NCBI RefSeq assembly: GCF_003589595.1
Contig: NW_020653855.1
Span: forward strand, 714,266-778,265
Source of the DNA: Hyposmocoma kahamanoa
Taxonomy: Eukaryota > Arthropoda > Insecta > Lepidoptera > Cosmopterigidae
Reading direction: 5' to 3'
DNA length: 64,000 nt
The position numbers and the translations under genes are program-made. Positions 993 through 43,100 of this stretch are shown piece by piece. Positions within the stretch are counted from its first letter, which is position 1, and each line of letters begins with the position of its first letter. Under the pieces are notes generated by a model. The model searched no databases, was not told the origin of the DNA, and saw nothing but the letters and a program-made list of their open reading frames with translations.

Positions 993-1168
993 GGTGAGCC
1001 CTTGAAGTTTACTGTGGGCGACGTGTCTCCGGACCCTAGCATCGAAGAGGATGACGGACCGTCTCACGAGGGAGGAGATTCCTTCCCCAACGCCCCACCA
1101 CCGAACATTCGACGAATGTTGACTCCTGCTCAACAACTGGCTTTGGCTGAGAAACGTAGCAAGTTGAG
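993..1168 (+). CDS. ACC: ACC alternative N-terminal exon A (internal, AMPK-competent junction)
   Basis: The acceptor is a T-run followed by CAG ending at 992; the donor is GTAAGA at 1169. The reading frame begins at the first base and ends in phase 2 (AG|), so it joins exon 42105 in frame and completes an Arg codon. It encodes ~58 residues: an acidic Ser/Pro-rich stretch ([13 protein letters not shown]), a Pro-rich middle, then a basic end (AEKRSKLR). It needs an upstream exon outside the window; an ATG at 972 is in frame but lies before the acceptor. An internal ATG (1119-1121) could also start translation. Residues KLR before the junction supply the hydrophobic -5 and basic -4 positions of the AMPK motif around the Ser at 42115-42117. 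I infer membership in ACC from phase, composition and junction; I did not recognise the exon sequence itself with certainty. Confidence 0.8.
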
Positions 1169-4100
1169 GTAAGAGTAGGATTAGTGATTTTAAGCCTTAC
1201 AATTGAAGTCCTGGATACGTGTCTTGATTTTATAGTGACAGTTAATAAATAATAATCATATTCAAACTCACTTGGGAATACCCTGTATCGCGAGTGCCAT
1301 GAACACACACATATGTAGATAGCCACAAACATCGAGCATATAACCAAAAATAGAGACGAAATAAGGCCCATCCATCTCTGACAACTCATCAGGCAAATGG
1401 GCCTTATATCACTTTTAAATATCAACTCTCGTTTGCGCTGAAATCACAAATTAGAAAGCTGAAATAGTACAGCGCCAACAACTGACCTGTGTGTACGTCT
1501 CCGTATATTCCAAAAATATTCTGTATTTATTGTAATAAAGATAATATCTCTAACAATGGGAGGCTGCTCCATTCTGTGGTGTGGGAAAAACAGCAAAACA
1601 TCTAATTACAAAAAAAAAGGAATCACATTTCATCGGTAATTAAATATTAAATATGTAATTTTTAAATTTTCGTCCAATATATAGCAAAGCTCAAGTTAAA
1701 CTGGTCGATTTGAAGTGAAACAATTGACGACACCAGTCAATTGTTTCGAATTCGGACTGGCTAATCGTAGTGCAGTAAACATTTGGCAGAATAGTTTTCA
1801 AACAAGTTTTTGGTTATATACTCGATGACCACAAATTACACGAGAGAATTAAATTGTAGGCCATACAAATATTTCTCATTAAAAATATTTGTAGCAGGAG
1901 ATGTGAAAGATTTAGTCCAGGGAAATACAGTCAAGAGCACGTCAAGCTAAACACTTTGTACTTAGCTCGTTCTTATCGTAAGCGGCATAGAATTGGATTT
2001 AAGTCTTAAGTGTCAAGCTTAACGTGCTCTTGACTCTGTACTACCACCTTATTTATTTCTGCCGTCAAGCAGTAATGTGAGCATTACTGCGTTCCGGTTT
2101 AGAAGTGTAAGGGTGCTGGTGAAATTACAGGCACAAGAGACTTGTCAGCTTAACCCTCAGATCTTTGAGATTCAAAGTTCTCAATGGCACTGCAACTCGA
2201 GAAGAGACATAACGCATATACATTTTGGTGGCTTCCGGGATAATGGCACCTCAGGCTTTTTGTTCCTTGAAAAATGTCATTTACGATGATTTTAGGAAAT
2301 GAAACTATTTTTCCGGATTTAAATCGCGTATTTCAGTTTGGGATCCAGTATTTCCTCTGATGAAAAATCCCAAACAGACATAAGACTGCAGTAGCGGAGT
2401 GCGCGCCTCCGCTCTGCAGTATACGCGATTAAAAAAATAAGGAAACTTTCAGGCGTCGAAACCGCTAGATTGGTTTACTTCAGCTACTTTCACAGTCTAA
2501 TGACATACGGCATTTTGCTTTGGGGTAATGCTGCCGATACCAATAGAATCTTTGTCCTGCAGAAACGTGCAGTTAGGGCAACTTACAATCTGGGCCCCAA
2601 AGTATCTTTGAGAGATAAGTTTAAGGAAATTAACATTCTTACACTAGCCTCACAGTACATTTATGAAAATATAATTTATATTAAAAGGGATAGTAATTTC
2701 TTTATGAAAAATAGTGACAAACATAACATTAATACGAGGAATAGAAATAAACTAGCTTTTCTTGATAGTCGTCTTCACAAAGTCAAAAAATCATTTAAGG
2801 GGCAATGTATACGCTTCTATAACAAGATATACAAAATTTGCCTTTCACGAGGTTTAAAACTATAGTGAAACAAAAACTTTATACTAAAGGTTATATACAA
2901 CTTCTGCGTACTTGGATGACAAAAATCCGTGGTAGTAACCCGTTTAGCTCATGGAGGTAGTCTCAATCTGATGTTTCAAATAAAAAAATAAAAATATTGT
3001 AAATGTTATTTACAAAGAGCAACCCCTAGAGTTTCTTGCTCATTCTTCTCAGGGGAATCTGCCTTACGAATGAGCGGTAGAGTTTAACCATTGTGACGAT
3101 TTCAAGTGTAATAATGCTTACCTGTGAAATAAAGATTATTTTGAATTTGAATTTGCGGGGCTGAACGTTCAGATTTTAAAATAATTTGCAGTTTTGTACT
3201 GAAAATGAAGGATTTGATTTTCAACATGTGGAAATATTGAACAAATGTTTATCGCTTTTTTTAATAGTAGAGTCACTTCTACTAATATCTCAATAGTCTT
3301 TTTCATAGAGGCAAATTTTTGACAAATTTCGGAGCGGAACATCAGCCCTGCTTTGGGGCGCGTCGTTCCGCCTTTGAGGCAAATTGTTCTGCCTAGATTA
3401 TGACAGAATAACAAAGATTTTCTTAAATAAAACCACCTTTTTATAATAGTATGTATATAATGTGTATATTATACACAAGTAACTTAAAAAAAACTACATT
3501 CTTATTCATCAGTAATATTATTCATCGCTCATTTCTTCATCTGAATCACAGTTGAGACACACATAAGTGACTCTATCATCTTATCTAACCATTTGACATG
3601 AGCCCGTTTGTAGTTTCGCATCCTTAAAACAAAGAAAAATGGTAGTATGATTCAGTCAATTGGGGAAGTTGTTCCTAGGAACAACCAGCCCCTCGAGAGA
3701 GGAACTTATAGCCCCAAATTACGTTTTTATACGAAGACTGACATACCGGTAAAGTAATAGAATCAATCAAAAAATCACTCAAACAATAAGATTCCTTACT
3801 AATGTCACTACAATTTAGAAAAGTTACGGATGAATCGGCCCATAATAAACAAAGACAGACCAAAAAATTTAAACAAGAAAACATTTACTTACGCGATGTT
3901 TTGATAGCTCCATGCACATAGACACATTTCCGTCGTCGCCAGAGTTACTGAAATAGCTGCCGGCAAGACGCATTATCTGACGCTTTAACGACGCGCTTCA
4001 CATGTTTTGCTACATATTTTCCTTGCAAAGTTATTGCTGTGAGAACAACTTACCCTGGAAACTACCAGACCCGGTCTCCCCTACTAATTAAAATGTTTTA

Positions 4101-7100
4101 ATTTATTTTAATAATTATAAATATATAAATATATTATAAATATATTATAAATTTATTAATTAATAATAAATTAAACTGTATAAAAAAAATAAAATTGTTA
4201 TAATAAGATAATTTGTAAAACATAATTGGAATGTTTCTTTGTAAAATTAAAAATAAGGTATTTAATTAATGACTTTTGTAACTATAGTGAAAAAATAGGG
4301 TGGTTTTCATTAGTATTACATATAACTGGTTGATGACTGTACCACCTCAGGCAACCGTGACCATGGAACCTGTAGAGGGCCCGAAACGTTGGTTTGTTTG
4401 AAAAAACAAGTACACGCCATTTAAATCCGGAAGAATGTGCAACAATCGCAAAAACCTAAGAACTCGATGCGAAGATTTTGTTTAACAATTAAAAACTGTT
4501 ACACAGCAGCTTTTAGCAGCGATGCAAACGCGCGTTTAGTTTATTTATTTTTATTTTATTTATATTGGCACAGTTACAAGATACAAATTATGTAATACAA
4601 GTAAAAGTATGGACACTAACCAGAAACAAACAAATTTGTGGCTCAATAACGACCACACAACATGCTAATAACATTTTGCAACTTAATGAATGTGGCTAAC
4701 TAAGGGTCGTATTCTAGAACTCTACTCAATGCTCAAGTCAGGATTTGAGCAGACTTGAGTATGATTTCAAGCACTGGAAATACGACCCTAATGGCAAGGA
4801 CTTGAGTATGATTTTCAGTGCTCACTGCAATACTCAAGTCCTGACTTGAGTATTGAGTAGACTTCTGGAATACGACCCTAAGTCAACAGAAAATGTGTAT
4901 ATACTTTAAATAAAATTACTTCACTCTGTGATGTGTTCACGTGCCGCCTTTCAGTCCGGGCTTTTTGTAATTATTACAAATGTGTTGGTGCTCTGGTGGA
5001 ATATATCAAGATCTTTACGTAAAACACTTATACTGCCTGCATTGCTGTTACGTGACATATTATCTTTTGCAGAAGGCACCATAAACAAATGTTGCCTACG
5101 ATTAGACCTATTAGGGACCTACAGCGAAACATGGCTTATGATGTCAATATCTAGTTTGGAATTTACTTAAATTTCTATTGAAGTTGATATTCAATAATTT
5201 TTAAGTGAAATTACTCCATTAGTTTGTTATAATTATTAACACAAAGATTGAACACTCAGAAAAAATTCCTTCGACCCGGCCGGATTTGAACCGACATCTT
5301 CTAGCATACCGTGTCAAGCGCTATACCAATTAAGTCACGGAACGAACTAGCGGACCTCACGAATTTTTCTATGTGCTTGCGTCGTATCTTTGTATTTGGT
5401 TTTTCAACGACTTTTTAGCGTAGCGCCATCTGTGAGGAATCTATATTTTTCCTCACCCAGTCAGATGCCTTTGCAGCTTGGTAACGAATTGTAATTGGTA
5501 ATGAATAGCGACATCCTTAGCCGGGGCTAAAATAAATAAATCATATTTAATTAAAAAAATATTGAATTGATCTTCAATTATTCTTGTGTGAAATAAATTT
5601 TACTTTGAATTTACTATTTTGTCCAACATCAGGAGTTTGTATCGATGCAATCGCGCGTTTGTATCGATGCTAAAAATCGCCGTGTGTACCACTCAGTATT
5701 GAAACTAAACAACTAATTAAAAAACCGATTAGAGGAGGTTATATATGTGTAGAATAGAGATAACTCAATTTTGCTAAAAATATCGATAATGTTAGTTATG
5801 ATAAGGACGGCCGAACTGCTACGGACAGGCGCAGGCGTGTCGCTTACCGCTAGGCGCACGACTTGTCCGTACATGCCTGTAAAATTTGAGGATATCCTTC
5901 GATTTTCATGGGATTTCCTCATCAGACACTGACTTGGTGACAATGGGACCACCACGAGAGTACACCTTTTCAAACATAAAAGAATTTTCAAATTCGGTCC
6001 ACAATTGACAGAGATACCTGAAAACATACATAAAATATTAATACAGCCGAATGTATAACTTTTTTTTAAGTCGGTTAAAAAAATAGGAAGCTACTTTTAA
6101 TGTCGGATTTCCGACGAGAGTTTTTTCCATAGTTGTGAAGCCTTAATCGTAAAGGAGTTTTTGAACTCTGAGCGAGTGAAATGTGGTTTCAGGTGGTTTT
6201 CCATTTAGGTCTAAACCTAACTTCACGGTTGTGATCCTCCCCGAGGAAATGAAAACGTTCTTTAAGGCAAGACGGCTTAAGGTAAGGTAATAAAACAAAT
6301 AATAATCACCAATACTATCTGTATTAATTTAACTTAATCCGACATCGTCAGCGACGTTCAATGTCATTGTGACTCAGGCCAGAAATGGCAGCGAAATTAA
6401 TAATTATCCAGTACGAAACGAGCCTTCGCGGTGACGATACGCTATTTGGCGCGTTATTGATTACAACGTGTGTTAAATACGTAAAATTTGTGATTTCGTG
6501 AAGTGATTTTAGAAGTGAAAATTTTATATCAGTGCTTTTGTACGGTACGGTAACGTGCGAGTATCCCGCGTTTTTTGAAAAAAGTTTGGTTTTCTTTAGA
6601 AAAAAAATGTTGCCATTTATTTTTCGAAGCAATAGAGTTTCTTATGAAAGAGTTCGTCCAGGGAAGTACAGCCACCTTATTTCTGCCGTCAAGCAGTAGT
6701 GTCAGCATTACTGTGTTTCAGTTTTCAAAGATACGAGTGCTGATGGAATTACAGGCGTTTGGTACTATAATATAAAGAATACAACGCAATTAGTAACCAT
6801 AAGATCTCCTTGTGATAGAGTTCGTCCAGGGAAGTACTGCCACCTTACCTATTTCTGCCGCCAAGCAGTAATGTGAGCATTACTGCGATCTGGTTTAATA
6901 ATAATAATAATAACGCACACACTCAACATAGCCCCGCACTAGGGAAACCCTGTGTCGCGGGTGCCATGGACACACACACAGACAACCACAAATTACACCC
7001 AAACTCACGAAAGAAATAATTGTAGGCCATACAAATATTTCTCCCGGCCCGGGAATCGAACCTGGGACCTCTGCGTGGCAGTCCGGTATGGTAACCGTTC

Positions 7101-13100: not shown

Positions 13101-16100
13101 TCAATGCGATTTTATACTTTAATTCTATCGGAGATTAGACAGAAAATTGTATTTTTGTTTCGTTGAAAATCGATGTTACAATTTAAAAAAAAAGTGTTAC
13201 CGTGTATTACATTTTTACTATGACTAGGACATTTAAAAAAATATATTATTAATTAACAATCAACAAATCATATTTATATAGTATTTTATGCAATCGAGAT
13301 GCTACCTTCAAACCTTCCAATCTTCAAATCAATAATAATAAAACTCACCTCATACAGTTCCATCCCCATCAAAAAATACCTATGAACTTAAATGAAGTTA
13401 AAACTTCTCAACATATCCAAGAAGTACACAATGTAGAAATGTTGGGCATAACCATTGACTCGCATTTGAACTGGAAAGCTCATATTAACAATGTTAAGAA
13501 AAATATTTCCAAATTCATCTATGCCCTAAGCGTCCTAAAAGTTAACACGCATGCAAATTGTGCCTTATCTGCATATTACGCGTATGTGTATGCTTGGCTA
13601 CGCTACGGAATAATTCTTTGGGGACAAAGTACAGATGCGCATGAGCTCTTTGTCCTCCAAAAAAAATGTCTCCGTATTATTGTGAACATCCATCAAAGAG
13701 AAAGTTGTAGACCACACTTTATTAAAGAGAAAATGTTAACACTCACGTCCCTTTACATAATGGAAGTAGCATTGTTTGTTCGTAACCAACCACAATATTT
13801 TGAAATTAATAAAAATCCTCGTCGCCAGTATAACCTGATCCTCCCTCCACCTAAATTAGAGATATACAGAAACAGCCCATTGTATAGATCTATTTTAATA
13901 TATAATAAAATTCCAATATTAATTAAAAAAGAAAATAATATAAACACTTTTAAAAACAAACTTAAACAGTATCTCGTCCAAAAAGCATACTACTCTATAA
14001 ATGAATTTTTATCAGAAAATAACTCACGGAAAGCTCACTTTTTTAATAATTAAGTGTGAAGTATAATAATTTAATTTAATTTAATAGTTAGTTTTAAGTC
14101 TCCTTGCTACACCCTGACGGGGTCATGTACCATACAAAATTTTATTATAAGACCTTTTTTATGTACATGTGCAACTTGGAAATAAATAAATAAATAAATA
14201 CGAAGCTTTGCCGAGTTATAGAGATATATAATTATTGCACACACTACTTTTTCCATGGTTAAATTAAAATAATGAAATACAACCAACACAAGATTATTTT
14301 ATTTTGTTAACTATCCACGACAACAAACTCAAACAAAAGCCGAAGAAACACTATAAAACAAAAACCAAAGAGATAGAATAGAATTGTCTGTGATGATTCA
14401 CAATAGCATTGGTCCGTATCGCGAAATATTTTAACGTCGTATAATTCTTAAATATTATTTAATTAAGATAATATACAGGTAAGATAAAAAAAACAATAAA
14501 AGCTTAAATACTAGAAAGTAAAACTAGGATTTTTAAATTATATGAATAAAATTGGGTCCCCGCGACAGGGTGCCCAAGATGCCAGCAGCGTTCCCCCTTT
14601 GTATTGCTATGCTAATGCGTTGGGCTTCCAGACAGTCTATTAATTATAAGGATAAAATTTTGTACAGATGAAGGGTACTGGGACCCCACAGGCCAAGGGT
14701 TTCGACTCCAAAGATTGTAAATAGGTAGTATATTGTTTGTGCCGATTAAATTTAGAATCTTGGCACCATTGACTTACAATTATATGGACGTCGGGTCCGC
14801 GCTAAAAAGTGTCCGAACTTATAGGGCGTTAAAATCGTATACAGAGCGTCATTCACGCTTTAGTCTTCGTTTGTTCGACTGACAGCGAAGCAAGCAAAAT
14901 TGGACAGTACTGCGATGACATTACAATTTAAATTCAACGTTTTAGCCTTTTCATATTCCTTGACATGTCACTACGTTTAAATAGGTTGACTTGGGACATT
15001 TTTTCGTGGTTTTTGTATTAGACCCGTCGTCCATTTATTTGTAAGTCAATGCTTGGCACTCTTAAAACGCGTCCGTGCACTACGTCCAATTCCTCTCCAA
15101 ATGACGGTCCGTCACAGGGAACATTAGGCGGAAGGGTCGAAGCACATAACTGCGATGCACCGTGCATCGCAGAAATCTGCGAGCTCGCACTACGCGTCAC
15201 AAGAATTTGCGAATTGCTCCACATCGCGCATTCCTGCGATGTTAATCTTCTTTGTGTTTTCTATTTGCTTATCAATAAAAGCAGTGCAACACTCTTTTTA
15301 GGATCCCTGTCGCTGCCTAGTTTAAAAAATACGTTCAGTACCGTTGACGATCGTCGAAGGAACGATCACCCGAATCGTGGCAGTGAGACGCTTTGTCGCA
15401 CAAAATCGCATCGCAGCAATTTGCGTCGCAGATCTCTTCGTTGCGAATTGGCATCTCACCGATTCGCACTTTTGTGTTTCGTCCATTAGTGCACAAGCGA
15501 CATACGAAGTTGGTCCGAGTTTTCTAGATTTGTATAGTCTCGGATTCGAAAGGAATGGAATGCGAAAACGCGCTTAAGGTTTAATATACAGCTTCGGCGT
15601 ACTTGGATGTAACTTTTTTTATAAAAAAGTTTGTGGAATTGCATCTAAGTAATAAAAGTGCGCGAAATCAGATTCATCCCCTAGTTTGCTACCCTTACAG
15701 GTGGAATATTTTCTTCAAATTTAAATTGTACCAATGCTGAGGTACCCCTTTCAAACAAAAAAGAATCAACATCGGTTCACAAATTTATCGCGAGTTATCG
15801 CGTAACATACAAACAAAAAATACATTAGAATTGTGAACCTCCTTTCTTTCTCCTTCTCTTTCGTATTTTCTCGGATTCGAATCTCGGACTTAGTGTACAA
15901 GCGACATCTGTATAGCCTTTAAAAAGGTTTATTTGAGTATTGGAGGTCTCATTCCACTCTTATCTATTGTGTTCTTAGCAAATTCTATGTATTTGCTATT
16001 CCTTATATGGTATCCAATATGTTCATAAATAATCTTATATAAATTGTTGGATCCCGGATGAACCCGTTTCAAAATAGGCCAGACTTCAATGAAACTTGTA

Positions 16101-19100: not shown

Positions 19101-22100
19101 TAATGGTGCCTTGAAACCCTCGCTACTCTCAGGATTCCATCTTCGAACCCTTCGCTTGCTTAGGTTTCAATAAACGCACTCGCGTGAAACAACCACTTTA
19201 CAGCCACGCATAACAAATAACTATTGTGCTTCGGGACAGGCGGCGGTGGCGTTTTAGGGTGCGTACATATCTAGCGAGATCTGACAGTATGGCTTATTAG
19301 GGTAGCCATGTAGGTCTTATTTCTCCCCACTTTATGTCCCAGCGGTATTGTAACTGTTATGGACAGGAGTGTCGTTTACCAGCAGTCTCACAACTTGCTC
19401 GTCCTTTCCATAAATATCAATAAATAAATTAAAAAATTAACCACATCGCAGATGCAATATCTGGTCAAACTAGTTTACCATCAATTCATTGTGGGCCAAG
19501 GTGTCCGTCATTACTTACTACTACACTGACAGGAAAATGACTGTTAATTTCTCTTTTTTGCCGCTTTATGTTGAATTTTATTTTTGTTGAGCAAGGTCGA
19601 ATTTAAAATGCGAGGAGTTGGTAATTGGGTGACTCGGTATACCATATTATGTAATCATAAGTCTGCCTTTTCACCAGAGATGTGCGAGGTAGCGAGGCAG
19701 TGAGACGATGTGCAGCGGCCCGGTGCGAGGATGCGTTACGGACTCTTTTTAGCAATTCGCGGGCGGGGTACGGTGTGGTGGGGTGAGCTGTGGCGATGTG
19801 TCAGTATCAGTTAGTGTCATACTTTCAGTAGCTCTAGTTTCCTACACCGTTTTGTACACATGCTTCGGCCGCATCTCTCGCACACATTTTGTATGTACAA
19901 ATACTTAGCTCCGCTAACCCTTTTCCGCCGGGGCTGCGCTAAGCAAGACTAGGAAAATGAAGTAATCATATTGGTGGCATTTTTCCTCACACCACCACCA
20001 AAGGCAGCCTTAGAGTGGTACATGCAATACAGGAATTACAGAATGTCCTAATTTGTACTCGAGATGTCTGAAGCGGGCTGTATACACATGTGAATCAACA
20101 ATATGTGCAGCAATGTGTAATCAGTGCTAACTATGATAGTCGATTTTTTTAATTAGAGATATCCTTAGAGCATACAGGACTGGAGGTATGACATGTGAAT
20201 CAACAATATGTGCAGCAATGTGTAATCAGTGCTAACTATGATAGTCGATTTTTTTAATTAGAGATATCCTTAGAGCATACAGGACTGGAGGTGTCATCGA
20301 TAGGCAGTCCCCTCTGTCAAGGTACAATTTAAAAAATCCATCGCACGATAAACACTGCTTTCTAATCGATGTTTTTTCATTTCGATCATCGAATTAACCG
20401 CGTCAAGTTCTTCACGAAATATCGCACATGACGACTGACATAGTGTTATCTCAAAATAGCTTTGAGTTATATTAATATTACCCATTGATATTACCTATTT
20501 AGTTACAAAACGACACTGTTGTCCTGTCACTTTGAAATTAAACCGTATATGAATGACACATCAATATAGCGAAATTTTGGAGATAATTTATTAATAATGT
20601 AACGCATTTTTGAGCTAAAATCATTGACTTACAATTATATGGACGTCGGGTCCGCGCTAAAAAGTGTCCGAACTTATAGGGTGTTAAAATCGTATACAGA
20701 GCGTTATTCACGCTTTAGTCTTCGTTTGTTTCTTCTGACAGAGAAGCAAGCAAAATTAGACAGTACTGCGATGACATTACAATTTAAATTCAACGTTTTA
20801 GCTTTTTCATATTCCTTTACATGTCACTACGTTTAAATAGGTTGACTTGGGACATTTTTTTCGTGGTTTTTGTAAAAGACCCGTCGTCCATTTATTTATA
20901 AGTCAATGGCTAAAATATAATTTGACGCAACCTTTGAAATAATGCTATATTAGTTGTCAAGTGCGATATGCCTACAAAATTGCAAAAAGAAATCCGCTAC
21001 ATCCAGTCAGTCTAGCCAAGGGTGGAATTACATTTCCTATAGGCACGTGATTAACCAGTACGTAATACGTACAGTACGTAATACGTACAGTACGTATGGA
21101 CGGAGCTGCCGCACTTTGTGGCTCGTAAGCCAGGGTCCCCTCTCGCGCGCCTACCCGCTCTTTTTAAACTAAATTCCCATTTTTGTTTGTTGTAAATAGT
21201 AGACACTACATTGCATACGCTTATCACTGCATATATGTATCATGAATAAATGAATTATTTAAGTATTTTATAAATATAAGAGAACACACCATACTACATT
21301 AAGGGGGGAAATCTTTATAAATACCCCTGAGCCCAGGGAGACTCAGGGGTTATGTGGGGACTCTCCCTCCAAAATGGAGGGCCTACCCCACTAAAACCCC
21401 CCACGGTTTACCTCCCGCCGGTTGAGTCGGCGTCGTGGGGTCGGTGCACATTCACCACGACGCCGCCCGGCGCCGCCCTGGCTTGCGCCGAGTTGTCCTC
21501 CGACCTGCCCCCCAGACGAGTGAGGCCGTGCAATGCAGGCTCCGGAGTCCCTGCCCAGTCCCCGCTGGCCTCACTAGGGGATCAGGCGAGCAGCGAACTG
21601 CCTTCGCCTTCTCCCCGTACGTCTGCGCCGAAGCGGGTGCGCGTCTGCCGCGTCCTCGCGCACCCGCTCCGCAGCCTCCTTTTGCGACATAACCTCTTCG
21701 CAAAAGACGCGCCCGCAGTTCATACAAACTAGCACGCCCCGTCCACGTTCCGGGCACGGCCCTGATGTGGGTGGATAGTCCTTGATAGCGCCTCCCGTCC
21801 CATATGTTCGGAGATATATTTCCACCCATTTATTACCTATGCAAATAGGCAAAGGTTCTACCATACAGCCTCTTCATATATACATGAGTATCTTTCCTCG
21901 TTTTATTATTAGCTATTAAATTGACAGCTATGAATGTAATTCATAATGCTCAGGGCTTATTGAAAACCAGCGCTACAGTCAATTATGGCTGTGGCTTATG
22001 CTGAATGAAGTCCTTTTGCGTACGTCACAACCACACAAATGACAGTACAAAATTTGTAGTCATTATTATTTGTTTTTTGTCTTAGAATAATAACGCATAG

Positions 22101-25100: not shown

Positions 25101-28100
25101 ATCGGAAGAATAATAATAAGTCATAGTGTGGTAAGATCATGAAGTAAATTTTATTAATAATCTCAGTACAGTACTAAACGTCATTCTTAAAACTTAAAAG
25201 TCATTCATCTCCTAGTTTGCCACCCTTAGAGGTGGAATATTTTCTTTAAATTGAAATGGGAACACCACTGAGGTGGGTATTCTCTTTTCAACAAAAAATA
25301 ATTATTAAAATCGATTCACAAATTTAGTTATCGCTTAATGTACATAAAAAAATACAGTCGATTTGAGAAACTCATTTTTTTTAAGTCGGTTAAAAATAGC
25401 AAGTTTATTGTTGGCTGCTACGTATGGAGTTAATTAATTTAGTTTAAGTGAACATTACGTTTTGAGTTTCTTAATAAATTGGTACCTTTTGAAGCTAATG
25501 TCTCTATAGCCAATGCTCAATAAATAAATAATACTACTAAAATGGCGGGTTTTGCAATTAATTACAATTTTTAAACGATTTTTTTAATTAATAGTTTTGG
25601 CTTGGATACAAGTCCTTTGAGCCATATTTTCGTTTAATTGTCGGGATCCTCAGTAATATTTGCCATTGTAGTTCTGAATTATAATACACTATGTTTTAAC
25701 TTTCCCTTAAATAACTTAGTTCACTTATTCGGGTTTGGAGTCAATATTTATGTTGTACTTTCACTTAAATCGCATTGTCTTCTATCACTTTGAATTTGTA
25801 ATTAGTGGAGTTTTCAGGATAAAGTCTTGCAATTTGGTTTAAAATACGGAGTATAGTTCTAACTTTCTTCATCTTCATAATATACTTAAAATAAAAATAG
25901 TCTTTGTAAAAACTGTACTCGTAACTTCAAAAACCCGTAATTTTCTTTAGACGAATTCATTAGGCATATCGTCCAAAACGCACATACGAGGTTTTCAAAG
26001 TTAAACGACAGCTATATAATAGTTTTGGTAAAAATAATTTGTTTAAATGATGGATGATAAACGATAACACCTCTGCGCGTTAAAGACTGCGTGTGGCTTT
26101 AGGACGCTACAGTACCTATTAAAATCGTTAGAGAATCTGTGTCTCTAATGATTCGACACGCACGCGTGACGGGTTAAAATATATAGTTCAAATTATTTGC
26201 GTTAAACTTTTTATTTACAAGTTTACCCTAGGAAACGTGCAGTTCGCAACAGAATTTAAGTTTATATCATGTTGGTCGCAAAACATATACATAAAAGCGT
26301 TGTAAAACTCATGTATGTACGTAAATAATTTACAACAAAGGCCATTTTTTGTACCATTATTTCAATAAAAAGGTTTCTTGCGCAAACGAATAAGTACCTA
26401 TCTATGATACTGTTTTTGCCTGTTTGTTGGTTATTTTTGGCTATTTTTATACAGTTCAGGATGAGGTTATGCTACGTATAATGTTATTAATATTGAGCTT
26501 TGGCAGTAGAGCCAAAGCCAAATAATATAGGGCAGGTAACGAATAATTGAGAGGCTCAAAACGTAATAACATTTTTAAACTAATAATTAACTTTTGTAAA
26601 AATGACTGTAATAACTTTACAAAAACCTGCCATTCTTTTTCCACTTTTTTTCGCCGGTTTTTTCTGACTTAAAGCAGCTAGTTTTTATTTTTAGATTGAA
26701 AAATAATAGTGTTGTATTAAATTATCGATATCACTGTCTTATTTATTAATTTTAGTTATATAAATCTTTATTTTAAACAATCAAGAATTAGATAATAGAA
26801 AAATGTTAGACGTTTGTAGACTAAAATTAAATTTGCGTCGGAGCAAGTATAAATTCACTAATCTTTTAAGACACTTGCGCCGTTCACTTGTTGTTTATTA
26901 TTCTTCAGAAAATGATGTACACGTGCACCGGCACTTCACTGGGAAGGTCCTCGCGTCCTACGTTCAAAAACACTAAAACTTAGTGGTATAGGTACGTGAG
27001 GCAGCAATTACATCGTATATAAGAGGCATTTCGCGCAAGGCACACATTTCGCGACTTAAGTTTGTTAAACTTATGGCTTATTTGTATAATTAATTTTATT
27101 TTCCTACATTTTCCAGATAACCTGGTATAATGTTTTTTGTATTTTTATACGTTTGTTAATATTCATATTCATAAGTGAATAGGTTAAGGTTGCATCAAAA
27201 TTTTAAGTAACTATTTACATAGATATTATCGAATCCGTTTAAATAAACAAGTATGGCTTATTTACAAATACATATATTACATACACATAGAATTTTTCAA
27301 GTAAACCAAAATTGTATTCTTCATTTATTGCGCAAATCTCCTGCGCCGCAGATTAATGGTAAAAAATCTTTACAGTTCCTTTTTTGATTGACTCTGTTCC
27401 AGTGAGCTCACAGAGACACATCTCTGTACAGTTAACATTTCAACATTATATTTCAAATTGAATGATAACCTGTTAACTCTAATTAAATCTGACTATGACT
27501 GCATTTTTATAAAGTCCAATTAACCAACTAGTAAAGCCAGATTATTTACAATTCAAGGACAATGAAAAGCGATTGTAAATATACTTTGAATAAAGCGAGT
27601 AGGTAAATCAAGCATTACATCAGTGAATAAACACGAGTGATGTTAAATTTTACAACCTCTGGTATTAAATGGATATTCCTAAAGTTTGATTTTCCATTTA
27701 ACTTCGTTACGTAATAGAGATTTTCCGATATCTCCAAAAACATTGAAGCAATCAAAATAGCATTAAAATGTCATTAGATATAGTGAAATGTTGTTGAAGC
27801 ACAACTGTTTTGTCTTATCTATTGCATGATTATTGACGTCGTTGTTGGTCTTTATCATATCCTTATATAGATAAATAATTTTGAAGCCACTTATGTGACA
27901 TGTTATATCATTTTGTGTATTATCTGCTAGTTTTATCTGATATGTTTTTTAAAAATAAAAAGGTGTACAGTACAGCACATCAAGCTCGAAACTTTGCTTT
28001 GTTGTTATCATAAGTAGCAGAGTTTAATAATGTGACAGATAGCCACACCTATTGTCTTTTTTTGTGATATCAAACGACGCTCAAGTCAAAAACAAGTCGT

Positions 28101-31100
28101 GCGCCTGTTATGCGCTATAATAGTTACAGAGCCACTCAGAGCTTTAAATAGCAAAGATCTGAAGGGCACTTTGTCGTTCCCTTAACCGTGAACCAATTTT
28201 CCTGTAAGGTTCGTTACGACTTTGCCCTACAATAGTTAAAATTTTCTGGTTCAAATTCATTAGAGGTGGTGACTCAATGGGAGAATTGTTGATTTTTAAT
28301 TGAAAACGCTACGGTTCGGATCCCCGTGAAATGTACCTTCACCATGACCCATATTGAGTCATGGTGGCGGACTATGGCTTAAACTTTTGGTTGATGATAA
28401 TTTCGCATCCTTGGTGTGATAAGGCCATGTGTCCAAAATTACAACTTTTCCGGAGAGATGTTTATGAAATTACTTAATAACTTTCATGCTTAAATCGGTC
28501 ATGCATTAGAAGGAGCCCAAACCCATCATTATGACGTATAAAGGGTTCTTAATGAAGGTGTACATTCGTAGGGTTAAGCGTTTTTATTTGTTTTATTCTT
28601 CTCCCTAAGATTATTTATTTATTATTTATTATTGATCATTCATAGTTTTATTTAAAAAAAAAGAATAACTTAAATCAGACAAAAGTCTAATGATCCAATT
28701 ACCATTCTTATGTAGTTAAGGAAAATGACATATTAATTAAATTAGTCATTCGAAGGAAATTGTTCACACACGGTGGTTAGTTATTTGCGTAAAACTTCTG
28801 TGGCGTATTGTAATTTGTAGTAGAGTTAGATGTGACATTGGTGCGTATAGACGTCTGTATGTGATTTTTAGCGTGTGTGAAGCAAGTTTTTCGATGAAAA
28901 TATTACGTTTGCTTAAAACAAAACTATACTAAAAATCTGCATAAAAAAACATAATTTTTAAACACAACCAAACTTTTCTCAATAAACGTTTAAAGCTCTA
29001 TTGTATCTTACGTGCAATTTTAAAAGTGATTTTTTTTATGTGTAAGTGACAGTAAAGTGATAAAAAACAGCGGTAAGAAGGGGCTTATAATAGAGAAAAT
29101 GAAATTTTTATGATTTTTACCATCATCCAACAGTTATTTTCAATCATAATTGGATATTTAAAAAATCTATTCACAATGTTAAAACGACGAACTTCAAAAC
29201 GTTTCGTGCTGGGAGACTCCACCAGCGAAGATGCATCGGCTTACGAGAATGATGAGGTCACTGAAACTTTGCCCAGCAATTTGAAGTTTCAAATGACATT
29301 AGAAGCTGAACCTGAAATTGGAAAACAGGAGGAGAAGCCGAAGGCCAAAGAAGATGGACAGTTATTGCGTTTGCCAAACGCTACATTGACGTGAGTGTCT
29401 TGTTAAAAAAGTACTTATTAAAAAATTTATTATAAATGCCTACGGGTTTTTAAAATAAACCTTGTAAAGTAAACTTTACAACAAAAGGTTCATGTGGATT
29501 TGTGTGAACCTAAATCACGGTTGCTATAAAAAAAACTAACGATTTAAAACTTGTAGGAATAAGTCAGCTGGTAATGTTTTCCTCTAAGGTCACGTTCGAT
29601 GTCGACGGATTGTTTGTATAATATGAACAATCTTATTCTTGCAGTTAAAGAATGGTTATTAAACCATAGTACATCAGCACATTTTTAAGTGTAAAAATAG
29701 TGTTGTCCTAAACTGAACTGCGGTCTGCATTTTCTGAATTTCACAAATAGAATGAGACGTCAGTGTCAAAAAACTGATTATCTACTGGACAATATTACCG
29801 TTTTTTGAATGTCTAATATTAAAATTAAAATCATACAATAATATTAAATCATGGCCGTACATTTTCAAATGACGAAGGTTGTTAACAACAATTATGTATG
29901 AACAAAAAACTTGACACTTTGGACTTCGAACCATTTGTATCCAAAGCGACATAGAGTTGAATTTAAATCTCAAATGTCCAGTTGACATGCTCTTGGCTTT
30001 CCTAACCAGTGCAAAAAGCTCCATGTAACTGGTCTGGTGACTACCATATTATACCTGCTTTTCAAAAATAGTGTGGCCAAGTCAAAACAGTTCATTATTT
30101 TATTTATTATTCAACTGCATTCAAGGTGAGCTAAATTTTATTGTTAATAACATAGGCCTTAGAGCTATAACTGTGTTAAGCCAAAACATTCTAATATCAA
30201 AAAGAGCATTGTGAGAAAAAAGTTGCATAAAGTATTTTTTTTTTGGAATTTTTGAGTTTAATAACATTAAAAAAAATACATTTAACTTACTTGGTACAGT
30301 AAATAGTAAAGACTCCTATCCAGCCTTTACAATTTTACTTTGCAATATGAGCTATTTTTATTTAAAAACGCATATATTTCTCTTCCTTTGGTAACCGTCT
30401 AAAGATTCTTGTTGTAAAATAATTACAAAACACAGCACTGAAACCTTAGATTGTTTTGGTTGGACACGATAGAGCTTTCTTTGGTGAAAATAATCATTAC
30501 AAACAACATTGGATCGGTACCTAGTACCTACTCGATACGTCGGCTTTTCCCGCCAAACGTGCCTCTTTTTTTTAAACTTTAATGTTTTTGATTATGCCAT
30601 TTCGGCCACTGTCCTTGAAAGCCACCGATGTTATTATTAGCAAAAGTGTAATCCATCTAGCGTGCCCTAATACCAGTATGAGGTAAGAGCTTCCACGATA
30701 GTGCAGTTAAGGTGGCACCATACTACATTCAAAGTGAATATAGTCCTAAAACAAAAAAAAACATCGCCACGATTACAAGACCTATCTATCCACTAAAGAA
30801 ATCAACGATACATTGTGAGACGTGCTGCAATTTAGTAAATACTTACGTCACTTGTACATGCATTAAATAAGTTTGTAATACTTATTTATTTGATTGACAT
30901 AGCAATTCCCTGCGCGATCAATTGTGTTTGCGTGGTAAACTAGTTGTATAGCCAAAGCCAGTATTGATGGAATTTACTTCTGTTGCTCGTATACATACAT
31001 ACAGCTATACATCGAAATGTACATTTTTTTTCATTACATCGATACAATTTATCACGGTTTTAAAGGTCAATTTAGAATAACAATTAAGAACGCATTTTAA

Positions 31101-34100
31101 CGCAATCATAATTTTGAATCGGTCATTATTAAGCCTATAAGGTCAAAGGTCCGTGGAACTTGAGGCTTGAGACTTAAACTCTCAATTCTATAATGCTTAT
31201 GATAAGAACGATCAAAATGGTTGAACATCAATCTGTGGCACCTTGATAGGTTCTGCATTATTTGTTTTTTCCATCAATGAGAATGGTTTGAGTTTTTTCG
31301 TAAAATACATATTCAGATTTTATTTAGCTACACGTGACTAGTTTTATGTTTTATTCATGTTTAACAGGTCTGGCAAGGATGTTACAGATGGAACTACAGA
31401 ATGGTGAAAAAAAAAATCCACGGAATATGCAATATCAATCTTTCGATAACAATTTAAAAATGCTTATATTTATTTATATTAATGTTGTCGTTTCTTGCGT
31501 GATATTCTGTTGCTTTATCCTGATACTATAACAAAGGGATAATAAGTAGGTACGCTTCCTTAGACTTAGTAGCTAAAATAAGTGTTTTAGTTAAAAACAA
31601 ATGCGTATGTTTATTATTATTTCGAATAACACATTTCGATGGCATTTACGAATTCTAGTGTATATTTTTGATATGGTGCTCCTTCTCCGTCTGTCCTTCA
31701 TATCTGAGGATCGTGACTGTGAGCAAGTACACCGTCAATAAATCTTCTTCACTCCTCACTCTGTCTTCGGTTAGATGGAGTGCGACATTTACCTGAATAT
31801 GAGCATCAGAGCGACGGAACTCACTTCGTGACATTGTCGAGGACACCAATTTAGAAAATTTTATTTCCTGTACCTCATCCAGCGTTCATAGGGCTACTGT
31901 TGTGGGCCACCGAGATCGTCTGTCGTCGTTTTGCGACTGGGAAATCTTTAACTTTGCTGAAAGTAGGTAATTGCCGTCGATATGTAATATGACCGACCTT
32001 GATTCAAGGTAACATAGTCTCGTAATTATGTGCCTACTTAATATATTTAGTTTTATAAAACTATATTTTTTGACCGAAATTGATTTACCTTGGTGCCCGT
32101 CATAGCATAGCCGCCGGCAATGACTACCTAATGCGTTATTCCAATTTTATTTTTATTATAACACGAAACTAGAAAAACCTGTTGCATTAAGTAATGGGTA
32201 GTAGCTTAACTGTTACGTTTGGGATGCTTCATGTCTATGTATAGCAAAAAATACTATGCTTAATGATTATAAAGGTCGATATTACTATAGTAGTTGTCTT
32301 GGGGTACCTACATATTTATCATATTGTACAGATATATTACAGATCGTCCTTTTTGTGACTATTTATTCGCTTATTATTATACTATAATTAGAAATTGGAG
32401 AAACAATTTTTTTCCCTGTACAAAATTATTTCATAGACATTGTATAATAACTATGAGGATTTCAAATATTTAGTTACTTAAATTGTTTATTTTATTACCT
32501 ACTTCATTTTTTGTTACATCTGTAGACGTTGCACCACAAACTAATAAGAGTGCGTTGCACTGTTTTATAAGGGTTTATATAGTATAATTTTCTAGCTCCA
32601 TACTGAACTCACACTTAAAGAAAAAATGCATTTTTTAAAATTTACTTACGCTTCAACATTTTCGTCATTACTTTTACAATACGAATTATGTCATTATCTT
32701 CTTACTTGATATTGAACTAATTTTAATTGATTAAATGATATCTTGAATCTTTTTAGATAGTTCTTATCTGACCTGCATTTGATAATGCTTGTGTTGTATA
32801 CACATGTTTACATGAACTTGTTTACTCGATTTGTTTACAAACTATCGATGTTTATCGTACTTTGCATCACTCAATACGTCAATGGCGAAAATAATTTTCA
32901 TTTTCCTGGAGCCATAATTTCAAAACGGGCAACTTTGATTTGGTCTTCCGTCTCTTTCTAACGCTTGTAACTCAATGAGATAGGTAGAGACAATGCGATC
33001 GTACGATCTGCCAAGAGTTCCTATTGGCGTTTGTTACGTCAAACTCGTAAGAAAACAAAATAATATTAGTTACTATGAAATGATTTAATTTTGCTTGTTA
33101 ATACGCGTGTATATGTGTAAAAATCGTTATTATCGAGTAAGCTAGTGCTATTTCTATGTTGTTAAAGTGAAAAATGTATCCAGCCATGAACGGTTTATAT
33201 TCAAACAATGTATACAGGTTAGAAGAATTCAACTTAAGTTTTTCGCTTAATATCTTTGTAGTTTTACTAGTTTTTGCCATTGAAAACCTATATAAAATCT
33301 CATTTAATCATTATTTAGGCATAAAGTAGTGTTTTGTAGTCGTAAAGTGAGTTTTGACTAAGGAATTTGTTAAGTATGCCATTGGTTTCGATTTCACTTT
33401 TTTTGACTGATTTATTTGAAATTTCGCTCGTTTCTAACTCTGCTTTACGTCTAATTGTAGTTACATTATCGTATTTCGCAATTAGGTATTTATACCTTTG
33501 TATTTTAGAATTTTTTTCGTAGTTTCTTGCATGTACTTGGTATCATGCTGCCCTGCTAAGCCGAAAGGCGCTATCTCAGAGATACGCCCGTTTGGTTTTT
33601 TTTGCACCAATTTAATAGCTATAATAATTTCGCATCTAATGGTAGAATAGAAATAGCGCTGTCTAACTTAAAACATTTAAAAAACCACTAAGAAATATTT
33701 TTATATCTCAATTTTCCGCTGCCATCCGCTAACTAAAATGTGGCTATGTGACAAAATTATTTTTTGAGATATAAAAAACCTTTTTTGAAAATGTTTAGTG
33801 ATATTTCAGTTAAGCATTGTTAGGGTAAGTTCCAATAAGTCAAACACGTTTACTAATTTTAACTGTTTTTAAATATTAACTTACAAATTTTTAAAACAGA
33901 ATTTTGTGTTCTGTTTTTTGCTATTTTTTTTAATCTACTTATTTTTTATTGAGGGTTTAGCCACCTTGAGCGACTATGTCAGCCTCATGGGAATTGTTTG
34001 CTATTTAAAATGGTTATTGAAAATTTGGACATAGTTAGCAAAAAGGAGCCAATCCACAAAATTATCAAAAAATGAGTTTATGTACCAAATGGTTCCTAAA

Positions 34101-37100: not shown

Positions 37101-40100
37101 ACTGATTGAACTTATAGTTGAACTTAGTGGAATAGAGGGATTAATTTCCGAATTAAAAATCAAATAATTAAATATGTAATTTTCCAATTATCGTCTATTA
37201 TAGCAAAGCTCAAGTTAAAGTGGTCGTTTTGAAGTGAAACGATTGACGACACCCGTCATTTGTTTCGAATTCGGGGTGGCCAATCGGAGCGCAGTTGTTA
37301 CTGTAATGATTTGTTTACAGAATAGTTTTCAAACAAATTAAATGACATTTCGTCTCTATTTCTGGTTATATACTCGATGGTTCGTAATGACAAAAAAGCG
37401 GGATGGTGATATACACTTCAAGCAGCGCTGTCTCACAACTATTCATTTTATATCCTAATCTGAATCGTAAGAAGAGTTCATAGTAACACCCCTGTTCTGT
37501 TTTTATTTTATGTTTCTTTTTTTTTTCCACAAAATTCAGGGAGCATAATATTTGTAAATAAATATGGCTGTTTACAAAAAGAACAGAAAATGACTGAAAA
37601 ATAAAGTTAGCGTAGTGTCCATTGGAGGTATCGATAATAAATAACACTGTTAATTAAGAAAAAAAGGAAATAGAGACACACTTAGCCACAACTCATAATA
37701 ATCTGTAAATACATTTACTATTGATAGCAGTCCCAAAATCAGATACTAACTGTCAATATCATTGTTGAAAATTAGTTCTTGCATGAATCTCATAGGGTTT
37801 TTATTTGCAGCATCAAATAGTGACAATTTTGATTGTCAAGTGTATCTTTGTTTATCTTATCATGTATTTTTACTTATCGTGCTATCAAGCAATAAAAGAT
37901 ATGATTATATAACTCTGAAAAGATTTTGAAGTTCCGACTAGTGCAGTTAGAATCAGTTACTTATTTTTAAGGTCAGAGTGTACTGGTGTGGCTTTTTTAA
38001 AATAATGAGTTGAAATTTCCTGTCTTTTTTTAACTAATAATCAGAAGTTGGAATAGACCTAGTATATTTAAACTTCAAGTAATATACAAAAAAGGGTTAA
38101 TACCCCTAGAAATGATACATAATTTTTACTTATTAAGTAGCAGTAGAGCTCCTTGTGAAACAAACCTTACTTATTTCTGCCGCCAAGCGGTAATGTGAGC
38201 ATTACTGCGTTCCGGTTTTGAAGGGTAAAAGTGCTGGTGAAATTACAGGCACATGGAACTAGTGAAGGTTCTTTGCCTTTCAGATCTTTGTGATTTCAAG
38301 GTATGAGTGGCTTTGCAACTGTTAGGGACAGGCGTGTCGCTTGTCTAGTCTCCACGTCACTTAGTATTAGAGATGCCACGAATAGTGATTTGTCCGAATA
38401 CCGAATATTCGGCTACGCTCTCGGCCGAATTCGGCTGCCAAATGTACGGCGTAAGATCTGTGCATTTTATACGCGTCCTGTTAAGACCTGTTTCATTGTG
38501 TTGCGTGCGGAGGTTACGGGGATGGGGCGTTTTTGTTGAAAAATGACAAAACGATAGAATCAATACATGATGGTTTCTGGACCTGTTTTGAAGAAGTCGC
38601 TACAGATAATATGCAAAATCATGAGGATGCGGGGAAAAGTTCTATCGCACATGAGATTGATTTTTATGTGAAAACGCCTAGATCGGACGGCAGATCCTTA
38701 CAAGTAGTGGTCAGCAAACGCAAAGCAGTATCCAAGCCTGTCAAAATTTACCAAGATTTATCTATCGTGTCCTGGTGTATGTAGTGAGATATTATTTTCA
38801 GAAGCGTTTTATGAGGAAAAGCGCAATCGTTTCTTACCAACCAATGCTGAAAAAATTGTTTTCATTCACTGCTGAATTGAAATACTAAAGCAATAATTAG
38901 TGATTAAAACACTTGATACATTTTGAATAATATGTGCTTTTTTCATTACTTGATGTACGGTATTCGGCCGAATATTAAAAAAAGTGGCCGAATATCGAAT
39001 AGTAGCCGAATGTTCGTGGCATCTCTACTTGATATCATAAAAAAAATTAAGTACAAAACTTTATTTTCAAAATACACTAGTCACAATAGTAAAGTAATTG
39101 CGAATTACACTTTAAATTTAGAGGAAAACACAATATATTCCGAAATTTCAGAGGGAGGTATTATCTACTTAATATGTTGTAGTGTATGCGGATTGTCTAT
39201 GATTTATCTCACATAATGCAGCTGTAGAGGGGGGTCAATCTTTGTATGAATGACCGCCAGCCCGGAGGCATGTAGTGGTGCGTAGATGACCCAAATGCCT
39301 ATACGCTATTCCTTGTAGGAGCGGATGGTACATAATATATGTATTACTTAGTTGAAATTTAAGCGAATATACAGGCTATTCCTTGCTGATTATGAAAGGG
39401 ACAAGTCGCACTGTTAATACAATAGTGTTAACTCAAAAAGTGAACTTTCTAAGTATCGATGAAAAACGAATTACTCGCTTCCCGCAAAAAAATCATTTAA
39501 ATTTATATATATGTTAAGTTTATTATAGACAATTAAACAATTTTCCAATTATATTTAAAAATAAAATGGAAAAATAGTTTCATATTTTTTGATAAAGGGT
39601 TATTTTGGCCAGAACTAGCTCACTGTCAGTGGCATTTTGAGTTAAGNNNNNNNNNNNNNNNNNNNNNNNNNNNNNNNNNNNNNNNNNNNNNNNNNNNNNN
39701 NNNNNNNNNNNNNNNNNNNNNNNNNNNNNNNNNNNNNNNNNNNNNNNNNNNNNNNNNNNNNNNNNNNNNNNNNNNNNNNNNNNNNNNNNNNNNNNNNNNN
39801 NNNNNNNNNNNNNNNNNNNNNNNNNNNNNNNNNNNNNNNNNNNNNNNNNNNNNNNNNNNNNNNNNNNNNNNNNNNNNNNNNNNNNNNNNNNNNNNNNNNN
39901 NNNNNNNNNNNNNNNNNNNNNNNNNNNNNNNNNNNNNNNNNNNNNNNNNNNNNNNNNNNNNNNNNNNNNNNNNNNNNNNNNNNNNNNNNNNNNNNNNNNN
40001 NNNNNNNNNNNNNNNNNNNNNNNNNNNNNNNNNNNNNNNNNNNNNNAATCCGGAAAAATAGTTTCATTTCCTATAAAAACACATATATTATATAAAGGGC

Positions 40101-43100
40101 TTTAGTTTCGTTTTAAAAAAAACTGAAATAAAGCCACTGTTCCTGCAGTTCAACCCAAGCAAAATGAACCGTATTAGTACGGGAAAAGATTGGAATTCGA
40201 ACTGAGCTAGTATCGACTCTTGAAGTAATTTGATAATGAAAGTGGTAGAAAGAAAAGGGATGTCAGGAACGTAGCAAGTGGTGGTTTGTGGTTTCTATGT
40301 ACTCGAATGGGAGACGGAAAGAGGTGTTCCACATATATAGATACATGTGCTACTACAGTTGGTGAGCTAATGGATTTTTTTACATGGCACCATTAGAGTT
40401 ACTTTAAAATCCGAATTCGACTTCCTAGGTCAGTAGTTTTGTCCGACGATGTAGTAAAACCATTTCCGGAAATCCGGAATTCGAAAAAGTTATTGACTAA
40501 TGTTTGGTGGTTTTAACAAACTCTATGTCTCTCCTTGTAGCTATATCTATACATGTATCTATATATGTGGAACACCTTTTTCCGACCATTTATGATAATA
40601 TAGAAGGTATAGTTGGCAATATATTATTTGCACCGATTCGTCGTAACGCTTCATCTTTAGAGTACAATAGGACAAAAGAGTGTGCCGCCTCGCTAACGCA
40701 CGTGCCACCTGTATAGTGCAAACACATAGTTTAAACACTTTTGCTCATTGGCAGTTAATTTTAAACTTGGTACTATTTATGCGGAACTAACTTTGTTGAA
40801 TTAGCAGTAAAAGAGTCGGCAGTTGGTACTTCACGAAGTACGTAGTAGTTTTAAAAAAACGACCTGATGAGTAAATAGATAGTAGTAGTTTAGGAGCAGT
40901 AGAGCTCCTTGTGGAAGAGTTCGTCTAAGGTAGTAGAGCCACCTTACCTATTTCTGCCGCCAAGCAGTAATGTCAGCGTTACTGTGTTCCGGTTTTGAAG
41001 GGTAAGGGTGCTTGTCACTTTGTCACCTTATGTTTCAGGGTGACGGGCGCAGTTTATTTATTTTTTATTTATTTATTTATTTATTTCAGGCAACTAGGAC
41101 CCATAGATACATACCTTACAGACTAACATACATATAATATAAAAATAATATAATAAAACAATAACAGAAATATTAAATAAATACCTTACGGACTAATCAT
41201 AAATACAATATAACATGATAATATACGTATAACACTATTTATTTACACGTATGTACGTTGACGTGTGACGCAACGTGGGTGTCCGGTAGCCGTCCTCGGA
41301 AACGCCGGTACATGACACCCTTCGGCCAAAAGTCTTCTCTCATGAAGGTCGACAGGTGTTGAGTTGGTACTCGCACCACAAATGAATTAAAATTCACATT
41401 GTGGCGCGACTCCAACCGCTCGACCCTCAGGTTTGCAGTGGTAGTAACCCTCATATTTTTGCGATTTAAAGCTCTGAGTGGCACTGTAACTGTTGTGGAC
41501 AGGCGTTTATCTTACCATCAGGCGCACGACTTGTTGGTCCCGTCACTTGACGATATAAAAAAAAAATTAAGACTAGAATTCAGAATAACTTTTTTGTTAA
41601 AAATAAAAACCGACTGTTTAATGAATGAAAGATGATTCTCAATCGTGATTGATCTTTAATCGTAAAGTAATAGATCTTTACGCTTTCAAAAACATATTGC
41701 CTAGTTTAAACGCTGCGTCAAATTATGCCTATGTGTAGCACTATAAATAACAACTCTTAATGTCGCGGTTATACTGCTCAATGTTGCAAGAAAGAATTCT
41801 TTTGTAACCTTTTCACCGTCACTGACAAAACTAGTTTTGTTGCGTAGACGCCAAGTGTAGTGATATGACATGATATGAATTTTAACCTTATATAAATTCA
41901 ATTCACCTAAGTTAAAGAAAAATGTAACTGAACATATAATGCAAGTATGAATCCATTCTTAACTAGAATGTACGAATAACAATTGGTTTCGTTGACACTT
42001 TAAAGCGTCTATGGCGGTCAAAAGTTTAATTAGTGTATCCGCTTGCTAATACAATTAGTAAAATTGTCCCAAAACTAAAAATATATACTATTTCTCCCTG
42101 GCAGGCCGTCTATGTCCCAAGGCACCGTGATACACAGCCAGCGATTCCAAGAGAAGGACTTCACGATCGCCACGCCTGAAGAGTTTGTGAGGCGATTCCA
42201 GGGGACCAAACCCATTAACAAGGTGAGTTATAATTATATTAATACAAAGAGAAATTCCTTGGATTTGACAGGAATCGAACCTCGTACAAACAGACGTGTT
42301 TTAAACGGCATCACTGAGCGTAAATAGCTTAATAATAATAGTCAGCCTCGCTAACAACTGAGGCGTATTTCTGTGGCGTGTCGCTTCCAGCACAAATGCC
42401 ATCTTTACTGCAGAATACAAAGACTTACAGTGCTCTATTTTCGCAATGTTAACTTCGTGTTACGGCTGCCATCGGGCTTTACCCAGTAGCCCTTTGTCTT
42501 TGGTACAGACCCGCGGACGCTTTCAGTCGACTTGGAAGTATATAGAGTTGCTATTACGTATTTTTATTTCTTTCCGCTCACAGGCACGACAATAACCAGA
42601 AAATGAAGAAATGATTACTTTCCGGAAAAATATTCATTTTTAATCATATAATCTCTTATAAGCACACTTTATTTATTTTATATTTTTGTTAACTTGTTTA
42701 TTGACATGGAGTAAATGTTATTAAAAATAGGGAAATAGTTTTACAGCTCTATATAGTTCATACGGAAATCAACACAAAACAACAATAAAATACATAGGAA
42801 ATGAAACTATTTTTCCGGATTTAAATCGCGTGTATTTGTTTTTTCAAATAAACCGACCCGAAGGGCCTGAAACGTCGGTTTGTTTGAAGAAACAAATATA
42901 CGCGATTTAATTCCGGAAAAATAGTTTCATTTCCTATGTGTAACAATCGCGAAAACCTAAGAACTCAACAATAAAATACGTTGTTCAAAATTCAAATATT
43001 TTTAAATCTATAATTAATGGGCTTGGAAATTAATATTCGTGTGCATTCGGAAATCCGATGATTGCCGAGTGACATTGAGAATACGTTCTTGCCACCATTG

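Follow-up and report, generated by a model that had tools for sequence, protein, structure and literature searches.

The ACC gene and its exons

The window, a stretch of 64,000 nucleotides of the Hyposmocoma kahamanoa genome (contig NW_020653855.1, C649 in our numbering, positions 714266-778265), is identified by its domain and structure matches as holding the 5' part of the only acetyl-CoA carboxylase (ACC) gene of that genome. Fatty-acid synthesis is gated mainly by ACC, whose best-known off switch is the phosphorylation of one particular serine by AMPK. In the gene described here this serine is encoded near the start of an exon (exon C) to which either of two upstream exons, exon A or the candidate exon B, could be joined in frame (Table 1), and only the joint with exon A completes the AMPK recognition motif.

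From exon C onward the gene encodes an ACC, with Pfam matches to PF00289 (E 1.8e-31) and PF02786 (E 1.1e-28). The best PDB matches of the gene product were chains of ACC1 and ACC2, which we take to be the human enzymes, and yeast ACC scored lower; together these matches place the biotin-carboxylase domain with the animal-type, eukaryotic multidomain ACCs. Further BCCP-like and central-region-like open reading frames, recognised by eye only, lie at 55050, 58191 and 60329.

The genome searches covered 728 Mb in 2727 contigs; only the best candidates were scored, and the DNA search ignores very common words. Within this scope no second copy of the ACC gene, of exon A or of exon B was found. Exons D to H gave nine matches, five of which are at the window locus itself (81-96% identity), and the other four are weak (32-53% identity), lie on two other contigs and probably represent other biotin carboxylases. 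Exon A has a single match, and exon B, searched as B plus C, matches the window locus alone and is thus single copy. The region 28700-29400 likewise matches only itself, which argues against exon B being a piece of a transposon. A query of exons A plus C to G against collections of genome contigs and viral contigs gave 31 and 3 pattern matches, respectively, none of which was confirmed, the genome-contig collection being one without relatives of this genome.

Table 1. Features of the ACC gene within the window
Feature	Position	Strand	Remark
Exon A, internal coding, phase 0 in, phase 2 out	993-1168	+	ends AG; ...EKRSKL + split Arg
In-frame ATG further upstream, a possible start of exon B	29110-29112	+	weak context, T at -3
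Acceptor-like site between both ATGs (position of the first exon base)	29134	+	48 of 2087 AGs (1-42100) score as high, own included
Exon B, candidate alternative first coding exon, phase 2 out	ATG 29176 to 29390	+	ends AC; ...LPNATL + split Thr
RRTS codons, PKA-like RRxS and AMPK-type site at Ser7 of the B form	29185-29196	+	motif scan
Exon C, common to both forms	42105-42222	+	acceptor CCCTGGCAG/GCCG; first G completes the split codon
Codons M-S; serine 42115-42117	42112-42117	+	matches AMPK serine of mammalian ACC (ACC1 HIRSSMSGLHLV in 6g2i)
Exon D (biotin carboxylase)	44323-44430	+	once in genome
Exon E (biotin carboxylase)	46097-46237	+	once in genome
Exon F (biotin carboxylase)	46707-46887	+	once in genome
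Exon G (biotin carboxylase)	48330-48532	+	once in genome
Exon H (biotin carboxylase)	49996-50205	+	once in genome

Exon A is 176 nt long and open from end to end in frame 0, with acceptor ...TTTTTTTGCAG/GGT and donor TTGAG/GTAAGA. On splice-site weights that were entered from the general consensus and are untrained, 8 of the 2506 GT sites in 1-42100 score at least as high as this donor (its own site included), and only 2 of 2087 AGs score as high as the acceptor of exon C. No intron window of 58 codons (2763 scored) and 2 of 1538 windows of 71 codons reached the codon score of exon A. Taken alone it matched no Pfam family up to E 1. Upstream of exon A a stop is met before any in-frame ATG, so the A form needs at least one exon further 5'. 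A scan for such an exon gave four candidates, none of them convincing, in upstream sequence much of which consists of N.

The split codon and the AMPK motif

Exons A and B both end in phase 2, and the first base of exon C completes the codon: AG plus G gives AGG (Arg) after exon A, and AC plus G gives ACG (Thr) after exon B. Here the exon borders, phases, donors and codons given by the original prediction agree with the sequence letter for letter. The serine that follows corresponds to the AMPK serine of mammalian ACC, presumably the one named Ser79/80. With exon A in place, the alignment to three ACC2 chains in the PDB starts with LRPSMS over MRPSMS and so covers this serine; with exon B, the alignment to ACC2 begins only at His82, six residues past it. 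Neither form was aligned across the serine in the ACC1 chains, where the alignment begins no earlier than residue 74 for A and residue 86 for B.

The AMPK core motif given in PMC6685927 requires that P-3 or P-4 be basic and that P-5 and P+4 each be L, M, I, F or V. By this definition the motif at PSMS is present in A plus C, with Leu at P-5, Arg at P-4 and Val at P+4, and with Lys at P-6 in addition. It is absent from B plus C, as had been claimed: P-5 and P+4 are still Leu and Val, and P-6, P-4 and P-3 are Thr, Thr and Pro. Compared with the canonical sites (HIR-SSMS-GLHLV in ACC1, MR-PSMS-GLHLV in ACC2), the A form has the same type of residue at P-5, P-4, P0 and P+4, whereas the B form has no basic residue at P-4 or P-3.

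Donors mostly end in AG. Once G is added as the third base, AG or CG gives Arg, AA gives Lys and AC gives Thr; since any phase-2 donor with the consensus AG yields Arg when G follows, the Arg of exon A is half expected. Indeed, five of the eight listed donors would yield Arg or Lys if joined to exon C in phase 2. As we read the junction, its unusual part is the C at position -1 of the exon B donor, not the Arg of the A form. The more general lesson would be that the donor consensus itself writes Arg at a phase-2 AG/G junction, and that a departure from it alters a kinase motif directly.

Exon B as a candidate alternative first exon

Counted from ATG 29176, exon B is 215 nt long and ends in the donor TTGAC/GTGAGT, which is perfect on the intron side and off consensus at -1; 25 of the 2506 GT sites score at least as high, its own included. 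In the 41-kb intron 1169-42104 it is the sole open reading frame of at least 40 amino acids that runs from an ATG to a GTRAGT, in any phase and on both strands. Two hundred introns simulated with a third-order Markov model contained seven phase-2 open reading frames of at least 71 amino acids in total, or about 0.035 per intron. The G+C content is 0.46 at 29201-29400, whereas the other ten steps of 200 bases between 28001 and 30200 range from 0.25 to 0.40. When aligned to residues 1-75 of human ACC1, exon B scores above all 174 intron open-frame windows tested. Exon B alone matched nothing in the PDB up to E 10, and its longer version matched no Pfam family up to E 1. As the only frame of its kind in the intron, single copy and with a start that weakly resembles the N-terminus of human ACC1, exon B looks better than a chance open reading frame.

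The best local alignments to human ACC1 cover residues 18-32 (RFIIGSVSEDNSEDE) for exon A and residues 11-41 for exon B, and thus overlap. The overlap falls on a single motif, K-F-T-V-G-D-V-S in A and R-F-V-L-G-D-S-T-S in B, again above all 174 intron windows. (A test on a 15-residue segment gave 0.0001 and 0.00055; the segment had been picked after the alignment was seen, and the test is excluded from the evidence.) To judge from the shared F-x-x-G-D/S motif, exons A and B may go back to a single ancestral N-terminal exon, of which they would be alternative versions.

The 5' end of exon B allows more than one start. Use of the upstream ATG would prepend 22 residues that include a hydrophobic stretch, with a 19-residue Kyte-Doolittle maximum of 1.39, which falls under the usual threshold for a membrane span. 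This 22-residue stretch recalls the leader of ACC2, which is described in passages of PMC2629817 as hydrophobic and about 20 residues long. If the acceptor-like site between the two ATGs is used, ATG 29176 becomes the first ATG of the exon. A four-codon upstream open reading frame starts at ATG 29099 (A at -3), and its stop overlaps ATG 29110 as ATGA.

The original prediction had described the choice between A and B as a one-codon splice outcome. This part does not hold: exon B has its own ATG, and between A and B only three in-frame acceptors are found, all of them weak (ranking 270th, 600th and 1707th of the 2087 AGs), which argues for an alternative first exon and makes an ordinary cassette exon after A unlikely. 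What B would replace is the entire N-terminus, at least 58 residues being swapped for 71-93. Most likely, the choice is made by the promoter, or by a 5' untranslated exon spliced to 29134, and not by a splice switch at exon C. The observation on which the original prediction was built is confirmed, and its interpretation is partly supported.

Comparison with mammalian ACC isoforms

Candidate exon B has its own ATG, lies in the intron that precedes the exon with the AMPK site, and is in frame with that exon. For human ACC2, passages of Castle et al. (2009; PMC2629817) describe an alternative first exon that lies between exons 1 and 2, by which residues 1-218 are replaced by 16 new ones and which gives an active enzyme. 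Exon B resembles this variant, ACC2.v2, in its place and in its own ATG; unlike ACC2.v2, with its 16 residues, it would encode 71-93 amino acids. The architecture of such a first exon is already known, and it is the loss of the basic residue that would be new, if real.

We take the AMPK serine of human ACC2 to be Ser222, which would put the ACC2.v2 junction at P-4, as in the present gene. The 16 new residues of ACC2.v2 reportedly end in Lys and so keep a basic P-4, where exon B gives Thr. Mammalian ACC1 is also said to have an alternative first exon just before the Ser79 exon (promoter III/exon 5A), which replaces about 75 residues by 17. Both mammalian forms reportedly keep the basic residue at P-4 (Arg in ACC1), whereas the exon B form of the present gene would lose it.

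A proposed second ACC form and the alternatives

We propose that the single ACC gene gives two forms, and consider the chances of this being correct about even. The A form, from exon A and at least one 5' exon, would carry the complete AMPK core site and, like the ACC of other animals, would be subject to inhibition by AMPK. Exon B, about 28 kb downstream of A, would start a second form from its own ATG and probably from its own promoter. Its joining to exon C would change P-4 from Arg to Thr and P-6 from Lys to Thr, so that AMPK would be expected to phosphorylate the B form poorly at the classical inhibitory serine. Through a new basic site at Ser7 (KRRTS), the B form could come under the control of PKA, of AMPK or of a different basophilic kinase.

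Weighing against this proposal are the weak similarities and signals of the two N-terminal exons, the candidate exons in the B-C intron and the hydrophobic moment of exon A. As to the first, 156 of 5000 shuffles of exon B align to human ACC1 as well as exon B itself (about 3%), the corresponding number for exon A is 140 of 5000, and the alignment of A with B is not significant (490 of 5000 shuffles as good). The codon usage of exon B is unremarkable, 158 of 1538 overlapping 71-codon intron windows scoring as high, and the initiator consensus TCAGTY does not occur on the plus strand of 28001-29180, where only two looser TCAKTY sites are found. The codon usage of exon B, its weak similarity to human ACC1 and the missing TCAGTY would fit a frame that is open by chance, or a relic no longer in use, with the A form alone being made; a frame of this length with such a donor can arise by chance at the rate seen in the simulated introns. 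On the other hand, an ATG, a long frame, a GTGAGT donor, the right phase, the G+C peak and the F-x-x-G-D/S motif coincide in exon B, and we regard the chance frame as unlikely.

The second point is whether B would reach C directly. Under a cut that exons A and C to G pass, a scan of the B-C intron for an intervening phase-2 exon gave one candidate (31883-31966), compared with none on the antisense strand; a laxer cut gave seven, again with none on the antisense strand. The scan misses exon H (sum 11.4, under both cuts) and is blind to a run of N in this intron, which could hide a small exon. One more exon ending in AG would restore Arg at P-4, and candidate 31883-31966 ends in AG, keeps the frame and scores like the weaker known exons. 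It would, however, put Ser at P-5, so that the core motif would still be incomplete. Four of the seven laxer candidates would give a basic P-4, but only 30641-30682, with a weak acceptor (2.4), adds a hydrophobic P-5 (Met). A route through such an exon seems very unlikely to us.

The third point concerns features beyond the core motif. For the ACC1 site, PMC6685927 names two extras, a basic residue at P-6 and an amphipathic helix that spans P-16 to P-5. The hydrophobic moment of P-16 to P-5 is 0.135 in the A form, and 4414 of 5000 shuffles are as high; it is 0.315 in the B form, where the segment contains a proline. Human ACC1 itself reaches 0.292 with 1272 of 5000 shuffles as high, so the measure is without power and gives no support to the idea that A and B also differ in an amphipathic helix of the ACC1 type.

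The B form might also be regulated elsewhere in its N-terminus. Its Ser7 conforms to RRxS as well as to the AMPK core motif, and Thr6 fits the AMPK-type motif too. Because exon B carries this site of its own, losing the PSMS site is not the same as losing all N-terminal regulation, and the B form may have exchanged one kinase input for another rather than lost control. Exon B could then be in use with its product still under AMPK or PKA control, via Ser7 or through docking, the isoforms differing in promoter, tissue or location. RRxS is uncommon by chance, being found in about 1% of 20000 shuffles of exon B. The AMPK-type motif, by comparison, arises in 14% of these shuffles and the same simple motif matches 1 of 22 Ser/Thr residues of the following biotin-carboxylase piece; besides, Ser7 is far from the known inhibitory serine, so that inhibition would not be automatic. 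On balance we find continued control of this kind unlikely.

In a variant of the two-form proposal the inputs would be exchanged outright, the A form being inhibited by AMPK and the B form being blind to AMPK at PSMS but responsive to a PKA-type kinase at Ser7 (RRTS). We hold this to be quite unlikely; if true, it would permit fatty-acid synthesis at low energy in chosen tissues, e.g. the pheromone gland, fat body or flight muscle, and a start at the optional upstream ATG could give the protein a short hydrophobic leader that resembles the one of ACC2.

Drosophila, too, has a single ACC according to PMC3431307, the main text of which contains neither the word "isoform" nor "AMPK". With one ACC locus here and one in Drosophila, an isoform without the AMPK site, as in the proposed B form, would show a single gene giving both a switchable and an unswitchable enzyme. 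Mammals use two ACC genes where one would suffice in this moth, if the proposal is true. In moths ACC catalyses the first step of sex-pheromone synthesis (passages of PMC4506583), which gives the isoform question a clear physiological reading. Six ACC-encoding transcripts were reported from a moth pheromone gland, several of them called partial, and the passages concerned give no N-terminal detail (PMC4506583). Among the matches listed in a thin literature search, which says little about what is in print, no title pointed to a description of N-terminal isoforms or of the AMPK site of an insect ACC.

Repeats and other features of the window

Two tRNA matches are found in the window, to tRNA-Thr (GGT) at 47961-48036 and, weaker and on the reverse strand, at 5271-5344. 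Both lie inside copies of one repeat, which form inverted arms (5238-5418 and 47888-48068, 87% identity), and the tRNA-Thr match is flanked by two near-identical direct repeats of 90 nt (47701 and 48065). The matches probably stem from a tRNA-derived mobile element, not from a tRNA gene.

Three long open frames (2395-2865, 13253-14053 and 62121-62483) have by eye the appearance of non-LTR retrotransposon remnants, and two of them share the string FSYFHS.M.YGIL.WG; none matched Pfam at E 0.01. A 171-nt repeat is present in two copies (6896-7066 and 52459-52629) that are 98% identical and 45.6 kb apart, each overlapping an open frame with the same start. Finally, two identical tandem copies of 102 nt, spaced at 105 nt, make up 20086-20292.

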